Shown piece after piece: positions 3,389-55,049 of a stretch of 64,000 bases of DNA; within the stretch, counting starts at the first letter, position 1, and each line of letters opens with the position of its first letter. A model generated the notes under the pieces. It was not told where the DNA came from, did not search any database, and saw only the letters and a list, made by a program, of their open reading frames with translations. Source of the stretch: Jaminaea rosea (Eukaryota > Basidiomycota > Exobasidiomycetes > Microstromatales); assembly GCF_003144245.1 (NCBI RefSeq), contig NW_020289993.1, positions 186,001 to 250,000 on the forward strand, written 5' to 3'. The translations under genes were made by a program, and so were the position numbers.

Positions 3389-5406
3389 CGTCCGTCTGGC
3401 CGGGCGACGGCGATGTGATGATGGACGGGTCGTTGAGGAATGCTGGAGTTGCTGCGCTGCTTTTGAGGTCGTGGCTCTTGACGATGACGACGAAGAGGAA
3501 GAGGGGGAAGAGAAGAGAGAGGAGGCGAGCATGATTTGCTCTGCGCTATGATTCGAGGATAGGGGAACCGGTTGCGATGAAGTCTAGCAGGTGATGGGGT
3601 ATCGATGATGATGTGCGGGTGCGACTTGGACAGCGAAAGTCGAGGGGTGGCGAGCCTTTTGCTGGCTCAAGACGCTTCAAATAGCAGTGTTGGTGAAGAT
3701 AAAGGGGAAGCTCGAACACGAGCAGTTCGTGATGCCAGCTGTCTCGTTGGTTTTGGTGGTGATGGTTGCGTTGGTTGGGTAGTGGTGGTAATGATCGTGC
3801 TCGTTGTTCGATCGACGATTGATTCGGGTTTGGCAAAAGGAGGCAAGGGCGCCCGCTCACCTCCCTCGCTCCCTCGCCGCCTGCTGCCTTGCCTCGCTCG
3901 CAACTTGCAGCTCTCAGAGGGGGCGCGGCGGTGTAGGGCTCTTGCCCGGCATCAAAGCAGTCACGCTCTTGACAGGGCCCAGCTCACGCTCGCCGCCTGC
4001 ATCCGCACGCCAGCCAGTCCGGGCTCGACGACTCTTCCTCGCCCTCGCTTTGCCGTGTTTGGCTGACCGCTGCCGCCCATCGCCGCCAAAAGATCAAGAA
4101 CGCCGGGCGTCCACCGACCCACCCCCTACTGCCTGGCCCGCATACGAGAAGCCACCCACGGACGTCAGCATATTCCATTTACAGAGTGGCATCACATCGC
4201 GTCGCATATCGAGGGCTGTCGAGGTGAGGCGAGCGATAAACGGTCCAGCGTGGCGATGAGGAAAATGAAGCCGCGGAATAGAGGAAGAGAGGAGCGGGGA
4301 CTGAAGGCATCGACTCGTATCGTGTCGAATTAGACGAAGAGAGTGGGTGAAAGCGTTGTCACTTGCTGCTACCCGCCATTGCTGGGCAAGTCGAGTACAG
4401 CTAACCGCTGCTCTCCACCGGATGACCATGATATTCGCGATGTGAGCTCGCCATGAGAGCACAAGAGTGGGTCACAGACATCGTGATCTTAAGTACTTGA
4501 GCTAAAGTGTGAGCCACGACTCTCTTCAACGATGAAGATTCGGATCACGACAGGCTCTCTCGCTCGGTAGATCGGCGACTTGTCAAATGTGCGCGAGAAC
4601 AAAGGAAGGACGAGTCGACGAGCTTGACGAGACGACAGCTGGTGTAGCAGCTCCGGACGAGGGAGAAGGCTGGGTGTGATGGCATGGTCACACCTCGCGC
4701 CGTGTCGCGAATGTCGATCTGTCACTCTCGCCCCTTGGTCACCAAACAAGCACCAAGTTAAGCTTTCTCGTAGCACCCTCCCCCCCTAGCCAGGCTAGCT
4801 CAATGTGGTGCAAGCGCCACGCGTTGGAGAGCTTGAGGCGGCTCGATTGAGCCTTGACCCTCTTGGGCGCTGACTGCTCGCTGTTCGATGAGAGGCTTGT
4901 GGAAGCCCTCGCTTGCTCAACGGGGTGCGTCTTGCGTCTGCTTGCTTGCCTTGACTCCTCGCTCGCCCGCCCTCTGCCCCCCCGTCTCTCTCCGCCCTGA
5001 AGTCAAGTCAATGAATTGAGTTGCACTGCGTCGCGCTGCCCCGCCCGCCTGACGCCCTGCCTGCTTGCTGCTTGCTGCTACCTGCTACGGAGCTACTACC
5101 TTTCCATTTTAGCCCCCATCTCTCTCCTCGACCCACGCTACTCAATACCCCTACATAACCATCTCCCTCCTAACATCAGCTTTTGCTGAACCCCTCCCTC
5201 CCTCTTTACCCCCTCGTTCTATACCTACCCCTGTTTAGCCTTGCAAGCGCCTAGTTGCGCTATCCCACGCTCTTTATCCAAATTGCTCCTCACCGCAACG
5301 CGTTGGGCGCTACCGATCCGACGAACGCTCCCATCGACTTCACCTTCGGCCTCCCTTCTTTCTCTTCCTCAAGCTATCCCGCCTCGTCACAGCTTTTCTC
5401 GCATCG
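3389..5406. other. Intergenic, divergent promoter region
   Basis: About 2 kb between ROT1 (minus) and the membrane protein at 5407 (plus). The open frames are Ser/Arg/Pro-rich and unconvincing. The last ~300 nt before 5407 are strongly pyrimidine-rich, typical of a fungal leader. A 13-nt palindrome (CTAGCC-A-GGCTAG) lies at 4786-4798. Nothing else recognised. Confidence 0.55.
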
Positions 5407-7623
5407 ATGAGCGGCCTGACACGCCACGGTGGTCGCCGCCTTCACAGCGCCGGTATGGCAGCCGCCGCGGCCGCCGCCGGTGGCTCCCTCGAGTCACGCG
5501 CCGCCCCTTCTCCTCTCGCCGTGACCCTTTCTGATGACATCAAATCATGCTCCCCCATGACCGTCACGTGGGATGCGTCCAAAGGACAGGCGCCCTGGAC
5601 GATCACCGTGGCCCCCGTCAACCAACTCCCCGTATCCGTAACGATCCCCACAGCCTCATCTTCCTCCTCGCAATGGCAGTGGAATGTCCCCAACTACCCC
5701 GACTCACTCAACGTCATCGTCGCCGTATCCGACGCCACAGGAGCGGTCGCAGGCACGTCCTCCTTCTCCAGAATTGCAACGTCCAGCTCCTCATGCTCAG
5801 CCCCTGCTTCGGATCTGGACTTCGTCTGGTTCCCCCGATCAGAGAAGGCGATTCCTCAGGAGTGTGGATCGTGGGAAATTCAGTGGCAGGTCGACTCCTC
5901 AAACAGCGGCATCACTCCACCAGTGCAATTCGTCGTCCTCGCTGAGCGAATGGTTCCACTGCAGTATGCGGCGGGAATTCGCGATACCAGCTGGAACTTC
6001 CCCGTCGTGCTGCCCAGCGGGACCGACTTTGTCATTGTTGCGTTGGATGATGGCAAGTCCGGCACAGGAGGCGTGGGAGAACAGTACACAGTTGGGTCCA
6101 GGCCGACGAAGTGCACCGCGAACGCAAACGTCACAGCTAGCCCAGGATTGGTGGCCGCAAAGTCGATTGGTAGCGCCGTCGCCGCTTCCTCGTCAGCTAC
6201 GGCGTCGTCTTCCTCCGCGTCATCGTCGCGCACTGGATCCCACCACAACTCCACCAAATCTGGCGCCGTTGCCGCAACGCCTACATCCAGCAATAGCAGC
6301 TCTTCCTCCAAAAATGCCGCCGACGACTCATCATCTTCCTCTTCCTCCTCAAATGGTGGCGCAATCGCGGGCGCAGTAGTCGGCTGCCTCCTCGCGGCGG
6401 CAATCGTTGCGGGCCTCTTCATCTTCTGGCGACGCCGCAAAACAGCCAATGGCGGTGGATCGAACGGTCGCTCTGGCTGGCCTGCTGCGGAGGTTATGCC
6501 CTGGAAGTGGGAGGTAGTAGACGATGAGAAACGCAATGGCAATGGTGGTGAGGGGCCCTCCGACGATGGGCACCATGGAGGCGGCGCTGCGGCTGGTGCT
6601 GCTGCGGCTGGCGCCGGTAGCTCTTTCGCAGTCCATCACGTCCGCAAAGCCTCGGGCGCAAACATGGACCCAACCTACGCCTACGCCGCCTCGGGCACCG
6701 ATGCTGGCTCGCAAGGACACCACGTCTCGAAGCCTTCCTTGTCATCTCGCAACATCTACTCGGTGGTTCCGGACGAGGCTCTCTTCCCTCCTCCTGGGCC
6801 CGCATCGTCGCATCACCATCAGAGTTGGGATGAGCCTTCACAGCAGCGCGGTCGGCAACGCGAAGTCTCTTCTGGGTCAAGCAGTGTCGAAGGACGCCCG
6901 CCGCGACCGCCCGTGGCTAAGGTGGTGCCTGACTCTATGCTCTTTCCTCCACCACCGCCCGCATCCGGAGCGGGCACGCCGGTGGGTGGTATTGGGGCTG
7001 GCGTGGGGACATACGCCGCGATGAACAACAGGTCGTACGACTCGGCGCATGGCTCTCCCTCTCTCGCCCCTGGGCAAGTGCTCGGCCGCAACCTCGTTCC
7101 CCGCCAGCCAGCACCCTTCCGTGAGCGAGAACGAGCAGAGGACCCCTTTACCTCGCCAGAACGTCAGCCTTCCACCTCCCAATCACCGCCCCGTCAACCC
7201 GCCTCAACGGCTCCACCCTCCTCATACCCGATCTCAACCTCCATCCACGACCCCTACTCGCACATGTCTCGCATCTACAACGACCCCATAATGGCCGCAA
7301 GGATGGCAGAGCTCGAGCGCGAAGAGCAGGACCGCCGTGCTCAGCTGGACTCTCAAGCAGCTCCGCCTGGTGCGGCTATGATGATGAGCCCTCAGCAGGC
7401 GAGGGAGAGGTCGGGAAGTGGGTCTCAGGCGCCGAGGCTTCCGCCTTTGTTGTATCCGGGTGCGAGGGGAAAGGCTAGTGCGGGTGAGGAGCAGCAGACA
7501 AGCAGCCCTGCGGCCCCCACGGCTCCCACGGCAGGAGGACTGGGCGTGCAGCAGCTCACGCGCAAGCCGTCTAACCGTAGTAGCATGGGGAGCGAGATGG
7601 AGGCGGCGTTGCCTTACCTCTGA
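5407..7623 (+). CDS. Single-pass membrane protein with two extracellular beta-sandwich-like repeats
   Basis: One uninterrupted frame of 738 aa. Residues ~40-130 and ~150-235 look like two copies of a domain starting near a Cys and containing W-x-W/W-x-F, a VAVSDATG or VALDDGKSG type strand and a closing Ser/Thr segment; this pattern is common in basidiomycete cell-surface proteins. A Ser-rich stalk with possible N-glycosylation sites (NVTA, NSTK) follows, then a clear transmembrane helix at about 317-340 followed by WRRRK as stop-transfer signal. The ~400-residue cytoplasmic tail is Pro/Ser/Gly-rich, with two repeats of the type VVPDxxLFPPP (near 6760 and 6925) that may be short docking motifs. 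No signal peptide is visible after the ATG at 5407, so an upstream exon may be missing. A surface sensor or adhesion role is inference; the protein is not a named family to me. Confidence 0.75.
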   Translation: MSGLTRHGGRRLHSAGMAAAAAAAGGSLESRAAPSPLAVTLSDDIKSCSPMTVTWDASKGQAPWTITVAPVNQLPVSVTIPTASSSSSQWQWNVPNYPDSLNVIVAVSDATGAVAGTSSFSRIATSSSSCSAPASDLDFVWFPRSEKAIPQECGSWEIQWQVDSSNSGITPPVQFVVLAERMVPLQYAAGIRDTSWNFPVVLPSGTDFVIVALDDGKSGTGGVGEQYTVGSRPTKCTANANVTASPGLVAAKSIGSAVAASSSATASSSSASSSRTGSHHNSTKSGAVAATPTSSNSSSSSKNAADDSSSSSSSSNGGAIAGAVVGCLLAAAIVAGLFIFWRRRKTANGGGSNGRSGWPAAEVMPWKWEVVDDEKRNGNGGEGPSDDGHHGGGAAAGAAAAGAGSSFAVHHVRKASGANMDPTYAYAASGTDAGSQGHHVSKPSLSSRNIYSVVPDEALFPPPGPASSHHHQSWDEPSQQRGRQREVSSGSSSVEGRPPRPPVAKVVPDSMLFPPPPPASGAGTPVGGIGAGVGTYAAMNNRSYDSAHGSPSLAPGQVLGRNLVPRQPAPFRERERAEDPFTSPERQPSTSQSPPRQPASTAPPSSYPISTSIHDPYSHMSRIYNDPIMAARMAELEREEQDRRAQLDSQAAPPGAAMMMSPQQARERSGSGSQAPRLPPLLYPGARGKASAGEEQQTSSPAAPTAPTAGGLGVQQLTRKPSNRSSMGSEMEAALPYL

Positions 7624-31700: not shown

Positions 31701-33835
31701 CAACCAGTGCCGCGGATGGTGACAGCGAGATGAAGGACGGCAACGCCTCGAGCGAGACAGCGGTTCCTACCATGGAGCAAACTTGGATTCGAGCCGACAC
31801 TCGTGCTCCCTTCGACTCCCAAGCCAATGCTCAGCAGCAAGCCCAGTCCTCCACATCCAGCGCTGCCAACGGTTCGACCTCGTCAGCTTCAGCACACACC
31901 CTCAACTTCTTCTGCTCCAGCGCTCACTATACCTTCCTCCGCCTCTTCCACCTAGCGTACGTGCGCCTGGCAAAGATGAAGCGCCTCTCCACCGAGCTGG
32001 GCAAGGAGTTGGACGAGAAGAATGCGCGACGCAAAGAAAGGGGACAGAAGAGCGGGGTCATTCGCGGAAACCCACTGGCGTTGCAGCTCGGCTTGCAGGA
32101 CAGGTTTGGTGGGATCGGTAGTGTAGTTGGTAGTAGCGCTGCGAGCGCAGGGGCGGTCGACGGGATTGAGCACGCCAATGGAGAGGCAGCGGTGAGCCAG
32201 TTGCCTTCCGCCCCAGTGAGCGGATGGGAGCTCCACCCCTCGAAGTACTACATGGTTCTACTCGACCTGATCGAGAAGTTGTTCGATGGAGATTCGATTG
32301 ACCAGTGAGTAAGCCCCCTCCCGTCGGTCCCAGATCCCCTTTGGCGCACTAGAGCTGACCACCGAACTACCTTCTGCGCACGCAGGAACATGTACGAAGA
32401 GTCTATCCGATTCATGTTCGGCATCGAAGGCTTCGTAGTCTTCACAATCGACAAGGTGCTCGGTGGTCTAGTCAAGGCGACCCAATCCATCATCAACGAC
32501 AGCAAGTGCGCGGAATTGCAGGCATTGCTGGACAGAGATCGACGCAGTCACCCCGGCCCCTCTGGAGCAGCTGGCTCTGGCGCCCCTGCAGCGCGCGACG
32601 CTCAAGCCGCAGCGTATCGCCACCAAATTGCGACACGAATGAGCGCAGAGTGCCTCGTAGGCAAAGAGGAGCACCTCTTCCGCGTCGGATGGACTCCCTC
32701 TACCTCCAGGCTTGGAATCCAGATGCTCTCCCGCGACGACCCTTCTGCAGACTTGCCGCCTTACCTGAGCCTGCGCGGCGTAGGTGCTACGGAGGCGGAT
32801 GGTGAAGATGCGGAGAAGCTGCGCGAGGAACGCTGGCTGTACTACGTTGCCTCGTACGCCCTCTGGGCTCCTACGGAGGGCTTAGTAGGGGAGGTGAGGG
32901 GGCCCTTCCTCAGGAGGAGCCTGGGCGGAAAGGTCGGAGCTGGCGAAGATGCTACCGCCGCTTCTACGGAGGGTGTACAACCTGCTTCTGCCGCCGCATC
33001 GCCATCAGCCGGAGCTGTGACAACGACAGTTGCGACAGAAGGCTCTTCATCGACGTCGCCCTCGGAGCGACATATCGTCTCGCCTGGCTTGGAGATTAAG
33101 GTCTGCTTGTCAACGTACCGACTCTTCTTCGTAGCCGACACCGAGGACACTTTTGCTCGTCAGCACGTCGCTGCTTCTTCCTCCGCTACGGATGGCGCGG
33201 CCGCGCGCGAGTCAAGGGTCAAGGCTATTAGAGCACAGGCTAGCCAGGGGAAGAAGCGCTTCGATCAGTGGGTCGAGGAGAGGAGACGGGCGATTGATGA
33301 GGAAGGTGTGGAGAAGGAGGAAGAGGAGCAAGCGCAAGAGGCCGAGAAGGATGAGGCAGCACCTGCACCGACATTGCAGGAGGGAGGCGGAGAGGAGAAG
33401 TCACAGGAGACGGCTACGGCGCAGGAGGTCAAGGAACAGGAGCAGCCTGCTGAGATCGCGGCAGAGAAGCAGGAAGAGCAGCAACAACAGGCTCAGCAAG
33501 AAGTCGCACCCGCTGCGATCGCCAGCGGCGATACGGAGATGACTAGCATTGAGGCCGCTCCGGCGACCATCTCTGCTACTCAGCCTGCCGCGGCTGCTGA
33601 GGAGGAGGTCAAGAAGAGCGCCGAGCCCGTCACTACGGTCGACCAGGCATCAGCTCCCGCAACCGCTCCCGCCACCGAAGCGGTCGGCAAGGAGCAGGCA
33701 GCTTCCGCCGCCTCTGCTGCGCCTGCGGCTCCCGCTAGTACGGCTGAGACTGTTCCTGCGGAGGCTGCGACAGCTGGCGCAACTGTCGCTCCTGTTAGTG
33801 GCGAGGACAAGAAGCCCGAGGAGGGGCAGCTCTAA
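28709..33835 (+). CDS. SIN3: SIN3 transcriptional corepressor scaffold
   Basis: Exons 28709-28711, 28785-28889, 28961-32304, 32386-33835; 1633 aa. Sin3 is the scaffold of Rpd3/HDAC complexes. The start codon is the last three bases of exon 1; a TAG lies three codons upstream in frame, so the protein begins right at PAH1. PAH1: [42 protein letters not shown] (residues 5-72). PAH2: about 260-330 ([30 protein letters not shown]). PAH3: about 486-552 ([20 protein letters not shown]). The HDAC-interacting domain follows at about 574-775 ([71 protein letters not shown]). The C-terminal Sin3a_C-like part includes [12 protein letters not shown]. Linkers are Gln/Ala/Pro-rich; the tail (after ~33290) is Glu/Ala/Gln-rich. 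Confidence 0.95.
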
Positions 33836-51542: not shown

Positions 51543-51705
51543 TGTAGTCACGAATGAATGCTGCGTCGAGAAGCAAGCAAAGGAAGCCTCGCAGCGCGTC
51601 CAAAGGCGGACTGACGGACTGGCGGAGTGAGAGAGAGCTCAAGGATGATGAGCTTTTCCTCCGTTTCCTTCGTCCTACTCTCTGACTTGCCCTCTCATCC
51701 TCAGA

Positions 51706-54700
51706 ATGGCCTCGGATGAGCCATCTCTCGGTCTCACTCCGCCATATCGCATAGGACAAAGCTCGACACACGTCTATGTAGAAGCTCACTGCGCCGATAC
51801 GCCCGCCAACATCCAGCCCGAAGCCGCGTGCGATGATACCATCTTTGCGCTACGATGTCCGCCCTACTACTTGCCGTGAGCCGCACCGACTACAAAGAAG
51901 CCTCGTCTTGAGTCGACGACTGACTTGCATCGGCTTCTCTCTCTCTGCGTCCTCCTCGAGCAGACTTCACTTTCCAGCCGCTCTCAAGCCCACTCTACAT
52001 GTCCATAGGCAGGGATCCGTTGTGCGCGTCGATCTAGAGAAGCAGACAGCAGACCTCGAATTCCTCGGTCTCGACGATCTGCAGCCGACGCTCTTCGTCG
52101 ACAATACCGGGACCAGTAGCGAGGAGGCTTCCACCTCGCAGCAGCGTGGCGACGACGGAGGCGAGGCCAAGGAGCTCCTGTCGAATGTCCTAGATCGCGA
52201 AAAGCTGACTGCCGTTGATGAAGGCAAGGAGGAGCGTAATAGCAAGAGCAAGGGAAAGAAGATGAAGGCCGCTTTGTCTCCGCTGGATCTCGACGAGATC
52301 ACACGCCAAGCCAATGCACAACGAGCAGAGCATGCCGAAGATGAGGCCTTTGACGAGCAGGGCTACTTGGACGCATACGTGGACGAGGACGGGTATATCG
52401 CCGAGTTGGTGAGGACGAGGTGGAGTACCGAGGGCGGCGCACCAGCAACGACACTACCGCAGGCCTTGGACAATCAAGCACCAGCGCCCTCGCAGCTGGT
52501 AATTGCCATCCTACTCGACCTCCTCCTCGCGCACCACCTGACGCTCACCCACATCGGCGGGCCCCCTCTCAGCTCCGCCAGCTCAGCGTACTTGCTCTGC
52601 TCCTTGTCACGCACCCTTTCATCACCTAGCCCGTCTCCGCCCTCCAACCCACAAGAAGCCCTCCGCTGCGCCTATCGCCGCGGCTTGGCATTCGCGCCTC
52701 ACGCAAGCTGGGCGTTGTGCAAACGGGCACACCAGGGCGGCGTTGCAACGCTGCGCTCCCCGGATCCGCGCCAGGCACTGGCAAAGGTACTCCGCGATGT
52801 GGACGAGTGCCTTGCAGCTGCGGTCAGTGATGAGCCAGAGGGACCTATGGAGGCAGAGAGATGTAGAGGTCTGAGGGAGAGCTTGACTCGAGAGCGCTTG
52901 GGTGTTGAACTGGGACGACTTGATGAAGACTTGTTGAAGGGGCTGGCAGATGAGTTGCAAGGGATAGAGATGAGCAAGACGGGTGTGGGAGCGAACTGGG
53001 ACCTGGAATTGCTTGAGCAGATGGCGGACGAGGTCATTGAGGAGGAAAAGGGGCAGACACAGGGAGAGACACGGTAGGTGTGTTGCCGCGATGCCCCTCA
53101 TTCAAGACCGCATTTCGCCATGAGTGCTGACCTCGTTTCTCGTCATCCCTCTCCGCAGAGAACAAGCTCTTAAAGAGGAGCAACGCATTTCCGATCTGTG
53201 CGACCTCCTTGAGCCGCCACACACCCTCGCCGTTCGTTTGGACGATCCGGATGGACTCAAATCCGCAGCACCGTCGACGAGTGAGGAGCAAGAGCAAGGG
53301 CAAAGATGGCGCAATGAAGAGGTCCCGCAGCTGCTGAGAAGGCTGGGCCGAGAGTTGGGATTGATGGGTGTGAGACTGGGACGTAGGAGGCAGCAGAAAG
53401 CCACTGCCAGCACCTCACGTGGGCCATCATCCTTCACTCCAACGGCAACGACCTCGCCAGCTACCCAAACGCTCGGTCGCGTCCTCATCACCATCTCCCG
53501 CTTTAATGACCCCTTCACACCGTGGTCCACCCTCTCAAGCAGCACCGTCTCGCGCCGCACCCTTACACGTCTCCTCCCTACTTCGCCTGCATCACTCTCG
53601 CACTCCATTGACATCCTCCATTCCGTACTCTCAAGCTACATTCGTCCGCTCTTTCTCTCTGTGGGCGGCGGTGGACCCGTCGATGAGAACACAGGCAGAC
53701 TTCGAGGGCAGAGGGTCGGGATGGAGATGAAGGCGGGTGCAGGACGCAGGACTACTGGGATCGAGGAGGATGTGGCTTGGAAAGGAGGTCAAAAGGGAAG
53801 CCAGGGCTCGAACGGGAACGACGTTCTGGCGAGAAGCAAGGGCGTCGCTGTGCACCTGACACTTCAAGCCTGCCTGGAAGGGCTGCAGAGGTTGCAAATT
53901 GCTTGGGAAGAGCGGAGGGATCAACGAGCCCCAGCGACTGTGATACACGCCTCCTCATCATCACATGGTCCTGCGCCCTGGCCATCACTCTACCCTCTAC
54001 TCCTCCCGCCCCTCCTCACACTGGCAGAAGACCCCTCCCCACCCTGGCGATTGCGCGGCGCAACACTGATCGTCAAGTACCTGCTCTCTTCGTCTCACGC
54101 CCGTCGACTCCTCCAGGCAGCCAATCTGGTGCCGCACATACGGGACGTGCTAGGAAGTGATTTGACTTACCTTTCCTCCGCTGGCGGAGTAGGAGTGGAG
54201 CTTCTGGATATGGCGCTGCAGGGCTTGCGGATCCTCGCAGTCGTCGGAGAGGAAGGGGAGGCAAGACAGGAGGTAAAGGAAGAGCTGATGCGTCTCATTC
54301 AGGAGGGAGTGCTCCGCGTGTGGAGTATGGCCCCTGCCAGCCTTACGGCGCTGGACGTGGACGTAGATTCGCCCGGCAGCACCTCCTCCGACACCCCTCT
54401 GGACCTGCTCAGCTCAACGTTCCATCATCTCACCCTGCTGCTGGAAGACCTCGGCCATCCTTATGTGGCGCGCTACGTGGATGTGGTGCTGCAGGTGCTG
54501 CTCGGTAGTGTCAATGGGCTAGAGCTGCCTGAGGGAGAAGGGGCTGCGCCTACGATGGCAAGTAGGGAGAGGGCAAGGCAGAGGATGGTGAGAAGGAGGG
54601 AGAGGGCAAGGCACGCGTTGCGAGCTTCGGGAGTGTTGGTGCTGGGATGCTTGAAAGATCTCGCGAGCAGCGAGGAGGTCCATGATGGCCCTCTTCTCAC

Positions 54701-55049
54701 CATCACCTCATCATCGCTTCCCCTGACCCCACCAGGCCTATCGCGCTGGCTTCCTCGCGCACTCGGGGCTCATGTGCGCGCTTGGCTAGCGCTGCACGAA
54801 GACGGCTTCGATGAGGACGAGGATGACTATGAGGCGACGATGGCCCTGCACGCCGAGCTCAGGCAGAGCTGGAGCATTTGGCAACGCGTACCGCCCCCTT
54901 CTCTTGAGTCGCCGGAGGGGACAGATAGCGAGAGGCTGAGCGTGGAGGAGATGGAGCAAAGGGTACTTGATGGTTTGGTCGAAGATGATGGCGATGAGCG
55001 CGGGAGAAAGGAGGCAGAGGAGATGCGTCGTCAATTGTTTGGACGCTGA
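51706..55049 (+). CDS. SHQ1-TTI2: SHQ1-TTI2 fusion protein (H/ACA RNP assembly factor joined to TTT-complex subunit)
   Basis: Exons 51706-51875, 51964-53073, 53159-55049; 1056 aa, all phases consistent. Residues 1-105 form the CS-like domain of Shq1 (LRCPPYYLPLHFPAAL across the first intron matches yeast YYLRLRFP). FDEQGYLDAYVDEDGYIAEL corresponds to FDPEYYVSEY. About 235-427 is the Shq1 helical domain: ILLDLLLAHHLTLTHIGGPP, AYLLCSLSRTL, CAYRRGLAFAPHASWALCKR, ALAKVLRDVDECL, and the end NWDLELLEQMADEVIEEE. After the second intron the chain reads as Tti2: FNDPFTPWSTLSSS, SLYPLLLPPLLTLAEDPSPP and WRLRGATLIVKYLL, EGVLRVWSMA, HHLTLLLEDLGHPYVARYVD. Shq1 chaperones Cbf5/dyskerin; Tti2 with Tel2-Tti1 matures PIKKs. 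The TTI2 part has no ATG of its own before 53364, already inside its helical region. Confidence 0.72.
53074..53158 (+). promoter_or_regulatory. Intron that joins SHQ1 to TTI2; its donor contains the SHQ1 stop codon
   Basis: 85-nt intron: donor ACG|GTAGGT, branch TGCTGAC about 30 nt before the acceptor CTCCGCAG. If retained, translation ends at TAG 53075-53077, directly after GQTQGETR, giving a complete 456-aa SHQ1. If spliced, the frame continues REQALKEEQRISDLCDLL into TTI2. Consensus read directly; use in vivo is inferred. Confidence 0.65.

Follow-up and report, generated by a model that had tools for sequence, protein, structure and literature searches.

A probable SHQ1-TTI2 fusion gene predicted in the fungus Jaminaea rosea

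The locus and its predicted gene structure

The locus lies in a 64,000-nucleotide stretch of contig NW_020289993.1 of the basidiomycete Jaminaea rosea (hereafter the window, whose numbering is used throughout), which has a G+C content of 59%. Pfam identified genes in the window for isocitrate lyase, a Rot1-like chaperone (of a family that Pfam describes as belonging to fungi), transketolase, COG5, Sin3, a sugar transporter, NMT1/THI5, thiolase, YIF1, a p24 protein and a YTH protein. This gene content most likely indicates a fungus, and the style of the introns suggests a basidiomycete. The scan covered 19 open reading frames (ORFs) besides the predicted fusion, some of which had no match, and a 794-aa ORF on the plus strand (5239-7620) gave weak, below-cut-off matches to single-pass membrane segments only. 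No rRNA or tRNA was found in the window, with ARAGORN used under the bacterial code. The ATG of a minus-strand alpha/beta hydrolase gene lies 163 bases from the divergent ATG of the gene described here (51543-51705), and a 170-aa minus-strand ORF (53102-53614) lies opposite the junction and the start of TTI2.

The gene itself is predicted to consist of three exons (Table 1), which bring SHQ1, an assembly factor of H/ACA RNPs, and TTI2, a subunit of the TELO2-TTI1-TTI2 (TTT) complex, into a single reading frame. An earlier note on this DNA had claimed such a 1056-aa frame with exons summing to a multiple of three, and conceptual splicing bore out both points: the exons, of which the third spans 53159-55049 (1891 nt), add up to 170 + 1110 + 1891 = 3171 nt, and encode 1056 aa plus a stop codon with zero internal stops. 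Without splicing, the SHQ1 frame runs into a TAG at 53075-53077. Reading in the TTI2 frame is free of stops from 53124, and the first ATG thereafter lies at 53364; as the same note had held, the frame has no usable ATG before that position, since the ATG at 53091, which shares the frame, is closed by a TGA (53121-53123).

Table 1. Features of the predicted SHQ1-TTI2 gene, in window coordinates
Feature	Position and length	Strand	Description
Candidate 5'-leader intron	51627-51704	+	GTGAGA...CTCTGAC...CTCAG; ends 1 base before the SHQ1 ATG
Exon 1	51706-51875, 170 nt	+	SHQ1 start codon (A at -3) and first part of the CS domain
Intron 1	51876-51963, 88 nt	+	Site score 20.8, within the trusted range of 15.9-25.1
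Exon 2	51964-53073, 1110 nt	+	Remaining CS domain and SHQ1-specific domain, up to residue 427
Intron 2	53074-53158, 85 nt, phase 2	+	GTAGGT...TGCTGAC...CGCAG; predicted to connect SHQ1 with TTI2
Exon 3, first part (linker)	53159-53363	+	68 codons 5' of the first TTI2-frame ATG
Exon 3, remainder	53364-55049	+	TTI2 helical-repeat protein and stop codon; PF10521 match

The first intron has a GTGAGC donor and its junction is bridged by the SHQ1-like_CS match on the spliced protein; the list of introns ranked by coding flanks gave a longer candidate (51828-51963) with an identical acceptor. The codon score of the exon 1 frame is the best of six, yet negative (-6.0), and in both parts of exon 2 that were scored, a positive score is found in the SHQ1 frame alone among the plus-strand frames. 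The flanks of the candidate leader intron code poorly (-3.1), as expected for a leader.

Families of the two halves

On the 1056-aa product, Pfam recognized SHQ1-like_CS, SHQ1 and Tti2 in this order. The CS domain (PF21413, residues 11-94) has an E-value of 1.1e-5 but a score of 25.8 bits, just below the cut-off of 27, so that it is assigned by E-value only. The SHQ1 domain (PF04925, residues 235-340) reaches 5.2e-4 and 20.0 bits on the joined protein, below the cut-off of 22, and 9.1e-5 and 22.5 bits, narrowly over it, on the exon-2 ORF alone, with a match that covers only positions 36-136 of the 186 in the profile. Yeast Shq1, for comparison, scores 234.7 and 97.4 bits. These weak scores are backed by the domain order, by the appearance of the CS match in the spliced protein and its absence from the exon-2 ORF alone, and by the element PPYYLPLHFP of the CS domain, which a pairwise alignment (given here with no shuffle statistic) places on SPYYLRLRFP of yeast. 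The assignment of residues 1-427 to SHQ1 holds, with two matches that are both weak and near their cut-offs. As in known SHQ1 proteins, a CS domain is followed by an SHQ1 domain, here within about 427 aa (507 aa in yeast, of which 37 residues lie beyond the Pfam domain); in contrast to them, the matches are divergent, the SHQ1-domain profile is unmatched beyond position 136, and the chain continues into TTI2 rather than ending.

SHQ1 had also been described as complete to a conserved acidic end. Its length does fit the domain size, but the conserved end was not confirmed: when the last 70 residues were aligned with the last 70 of yeast Shq1, 1285 of 2000 shuffles scored as high, and the yeast tail aligned about equally with the SHQ1 tail (25) and with the linker (22). 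In NCBIfam, the SHQ1 ORF had a single match, to RSP_7527, far below the cut-off (13.5 vs 26 bits). A single-sequence AlphaFold2 model of the exon-2 SHQ1 ORF was too poor for a fold search (mean pLDDT 39.3).

The Tti2 assignment of residues 428-1056, which had likewise been proposed, holds as well. PF10521 matches the separate ORF in two stretches at 3.4e-18 (66.6 bits vs a cut-off of 25.2) and the joined protein at 1.5e-17 in its best stretch (residues 704-865, 64.5 bits, cut-off 25.2), and human TTI2 itself scores 53.2 bits. About 97 residues separate profile positions 68 and 118, which suggests an insert that distinguishes this protein from known TTI2, as do the SHQ1 and coding-like sequence that precede it in place of a good start codon. 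A PW.T motif aligned with position 162 of human TTI2, and the section around it, picked because the motif was expected there, was matched by only 2 of 1000 shuffles. In pairwise comparison, neither the whole of exon 3 against human TTI2 (85/1000 shuffles as good) nor the linker against human TTI2 1-160 (183/1000) was significant. NCBIfam gave no match for TTI2. The single-sequence AlphaFold2 model of exon 3 was nearly all helical with a mean pLDDT of 41.3, too poor for a fold search.

A PDB sequence search with the SHQ1 and TTI2 proteins of the window gave no relative: one had a chance antibody match (E 0.17), the other none. No relatives of TTI2 or SHQ1 were found in viral contigs, nor of TTI2 in prokaryote genomes, a result to be expected of a eukaryotic gene.

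The junction and its rival readings

One open frame with both families, an in-phase intron of normal appearance and a coding-like linker together make it probable, in our judgement, that the three-exon gene encodes one 1056-aa SHQ1-TTI2 fusion protein, counting a full-length product of any share; its transcript would then be made and spliced over both halves. The main rival, which is less likely and which we regard as improbable, consists of two tandem genes, with SHQ1 ending at the TAG (427 aa), TTI2 starting at ATG 53364 (561 aa) from its own promoter in the gap between them, and the intron as a chance look-alike. Gene models that falsely join tandem neighbours are a common error, and several observations suit two genes. 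SHQ1 is about full length at the TAG, where a tail like that of yeast fits, and the Tti2 profile starts past the ATG (profile position 1 is exon-3 residue 108, the ATG residue 69). From the preceding stop to the first ATG the TTI2 frame runs for 240 nt, an ordinary distance (243 in COG5); this length was tested as evidence and dropped for that reason. In addition, the single neighbouring gap that was measured, between SHQ1 and the hydrolase, has just 163 bases, so that the 286 bases from the SHQ1 stop to the TTI2 ATG could hold a gene boundary. The weak SHQ1 matches, the SHQ1 tail with its non-significant alignment to yeast and the linker with its non-significant likeness to human TTI2 also count against the fusion. 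The stop itself is uninformative: the TAG overlaps the donor of intron 2, and a phase-2 intron with a GTAG, GTAA or GTGA donor always yields a stop (here G-TAG-GT), which therefore gives no evidence of a gene end.

What argues against tandem genes is first the intron, which had been put forward as in phase and consensus-like. Splice sites were scored with a model built from 15 other introns of the window, for which leave-one-out scoring gave the trusted range; these were picked by eye (short, canonical, good flanks) among 40 listed candidates and thus lean to the consensus. Among them, the Sin3 intron (32305-32385) alone has outside support: the sequences on its two sides match adjoining stretches of the Sin3a_C profile (1-84 and 86-281), and it can serve as a yardstick for other introns in the genome. 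Intron 2 scored 19.5, inside the trusted range, which sustains the proposal and counts for the fusion; of the 38889 GT-AG pairs with a length of 50-130 nt on the two strands, 82 reach this score, real introns among them. Among the 40 candidates listed, which were required to have GT..AG and a branch-point motif and were ranked by coding flanks with the help of a codon table derived from other genes, it stands 10th. A cruder, longer model gave it 14.7, low among the trusted introns (12.8-32.2, scored with themselves in training), which counts against the fusion; because the trusted set was scored with itself, this score was replaced by the shorter leave-one-out score. Under the cruder model, any open in-phase GT-AG pair occurred in 710 of 2000 dinucleotide-shuffled junctions (53033-53363), but an in-phase open intron of equal or higher score in just 38, which makes a chance look-alike less credible. 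Intron 2 carries no period-3 signal (780/2000 shuffles as high), though this is a short stretch.

The second argument against tandem genes is the linker, which resembles coding sequence in the TTI2 frame ahead of its first ATG. Its 204 bases (53160-53363) carry a period-3 signal equalled by 15 of 2000 mononucleotide shuffles, similar to that of the first 204 bases past ATG 53364 (19/2000), while no such signal is seen in the 204 bases on either side of the gene (1842/2000 upstream, 998/2000 downstream). The codon score is 7.8 bits in the TTI2 frame, and -9.4 and -24.9 in the other plus-strand frames. When first-order Markov sequences of linker composition were generated, 3237 of 20000 were open and 160 of these as coding-like; 160 in 20000 speaks against tandem genes, while 160 in 3237 open sequences counts against the fusion. 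However, a minus-strand frame of the same stretch scores 13.0 bits, above the TTI2 frame, which counts against the fusion and may merely reflect the codons on the plus strand. As the frame is open from 53124 with no ATG until 53364, a coding linker would have to be entered by splicing (or from a near-cognate start). Among 45 routes that lead from an ATG into the open TTI2 frame through one GT-AG intron of at most about 250 nt, only the one from SHQ1 reaches the trusted range, and the second best (12.7) likewise comes from the SHQ1 frame. The PW motif is preceded by 52 residues from ATG 53364, by 120 from the start of exon 3 and by 161 in human TTI2. Note that the T at -3 of ATG 53364, weak evidence for the fusion, means little, since 3 of the 13 other Pfam-supported ORFs listed (Sin3, YTH and p24) also have a T at -3 of the first ATG, which may not be their true start.

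The fusion reading includes a variant in which one locus gives both forms, with retention of intron 2 yielding free 427-aa SHQ1 and its splicing the fusion; we give this variant a small share of the probability assigned to the fusion. Retention places the TAG as the first full codon past the junction codon and leaves SHQ1 at about its natural length, but any phase-2 donor of the three types named above does so, and there is nothing special in this arrangement. A retained-intron mRNA would, moreover, have a long untranslated 3' part, which may trigger its decay. Least probable of all, and in our view very unlikely, is that TTI2 has a transcript of its own, which begins within the 3' end of SHQ1, takes the SHQ1-frame ATG at 52970 or 53021 as its start and shares intron 2, with SHQ1 mRNA ending unspliced: both ATGs are in phase (with G and C at -3, respectively) and this accounts equally well for the intron and the coding linker, but it requires a promoter within a coding exon and either a coincidental in-frame reading of the SHQ1 tail or descent from a fusion.

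Proposed working and meaning of the fusion

SHQ1 and TTT are each known to use the Hsp90-R2TP machine, separately from one another, and natural gene fusions of partners in one pathway are known as 'Rosetta stone' proteins. The predicted SHQ1-TTI2 fusion resembles these in that proteins that are separate elsewhere but serve the same machine would form one chain here, and differs from them in that its halves serve different clients (H/ACA RNPs and PIKKs). No description of an SHQ1-TTI2 fusion was found in the titles and abstract openings listed from the open-licence PMC literature.

Several published results on the separate proteins bear on such a chain. SHQ1 uses a CS domain and a C-terminal domain to clamp NAP57/dyskerin; RUVBL1/2 are reported to bind the first of these and to remove SHQ1 (PMC9406135). 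TTI1-TTI2 contact the RUVBL ring at two of its DII domains; one of these packs in the cleft between the TTI1 C terminus and the TTI2 N terminus, and TTT inhibits the RUVBL ATPase and brings TOR (PMC8278493). In the same study, residues 1-193 of human TTI2 form the half that binds TTI1, and GST on the TTI2 N terminus did not prevent this binding; the geometry of the fusion thus looks tolerable. The partners recovered by affinity purification of R2TP include SHQ1 and all three TTT subunits (PMC5460035). In yeast, TTI2 is essential, and viability was lost with two truncations of its C terminus (PMC4889661); in the predicted fusion, the TTI2 C terminus is free.

Going by these precedents, the SHQ1 part would hold Cbf5/dyskerin, to which SHQ1 binds as an RNA mimic, by means of the CS domain and the SHQ1-specific domain, the TTI2 part would join TTI1-TEL2 and help to deliver PIKK kinases, and both parts would touch the RUVBL1/2 ring. 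SHQ1 would hang off the N-terminal end of TTI2, beside the TTI1-TTI2 cleft where a DII domain of RUVBL2 packs in the human complex. The fusion would then fix the two adaptors at 1:1 and make the chaperone ring locally more concentrated for both clients. The tether could be functional and link two R2TP branches; as an alternative, the joining may be near-neutral and tolerated by both halves. That a fungal lineage has welded SHQ1 to TTI2, so that snoRNP/telomerase-RNP and PIKK assembly dock on the same RUVBL1/2 ring, with retention of intron 2 possibly a valve that frees SHQ1, is a speculative proposal to which we give a slim chance.

In that case, H/ACA RNPs and TOR/ATM-type kinases would be supplied in a fixed, coupled proportion. 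A natural fusion would in any case mean that SHQ1 tolerates a large C-terminal partner, and TTI2 a large N-terminal one, in vivo. The gene would also offer a ready construct for testing the coupling of the two assembly lines. If the fusion is natural, it would be evidence that SHQ1 and TTT can act side by side on one RUVBL ring.
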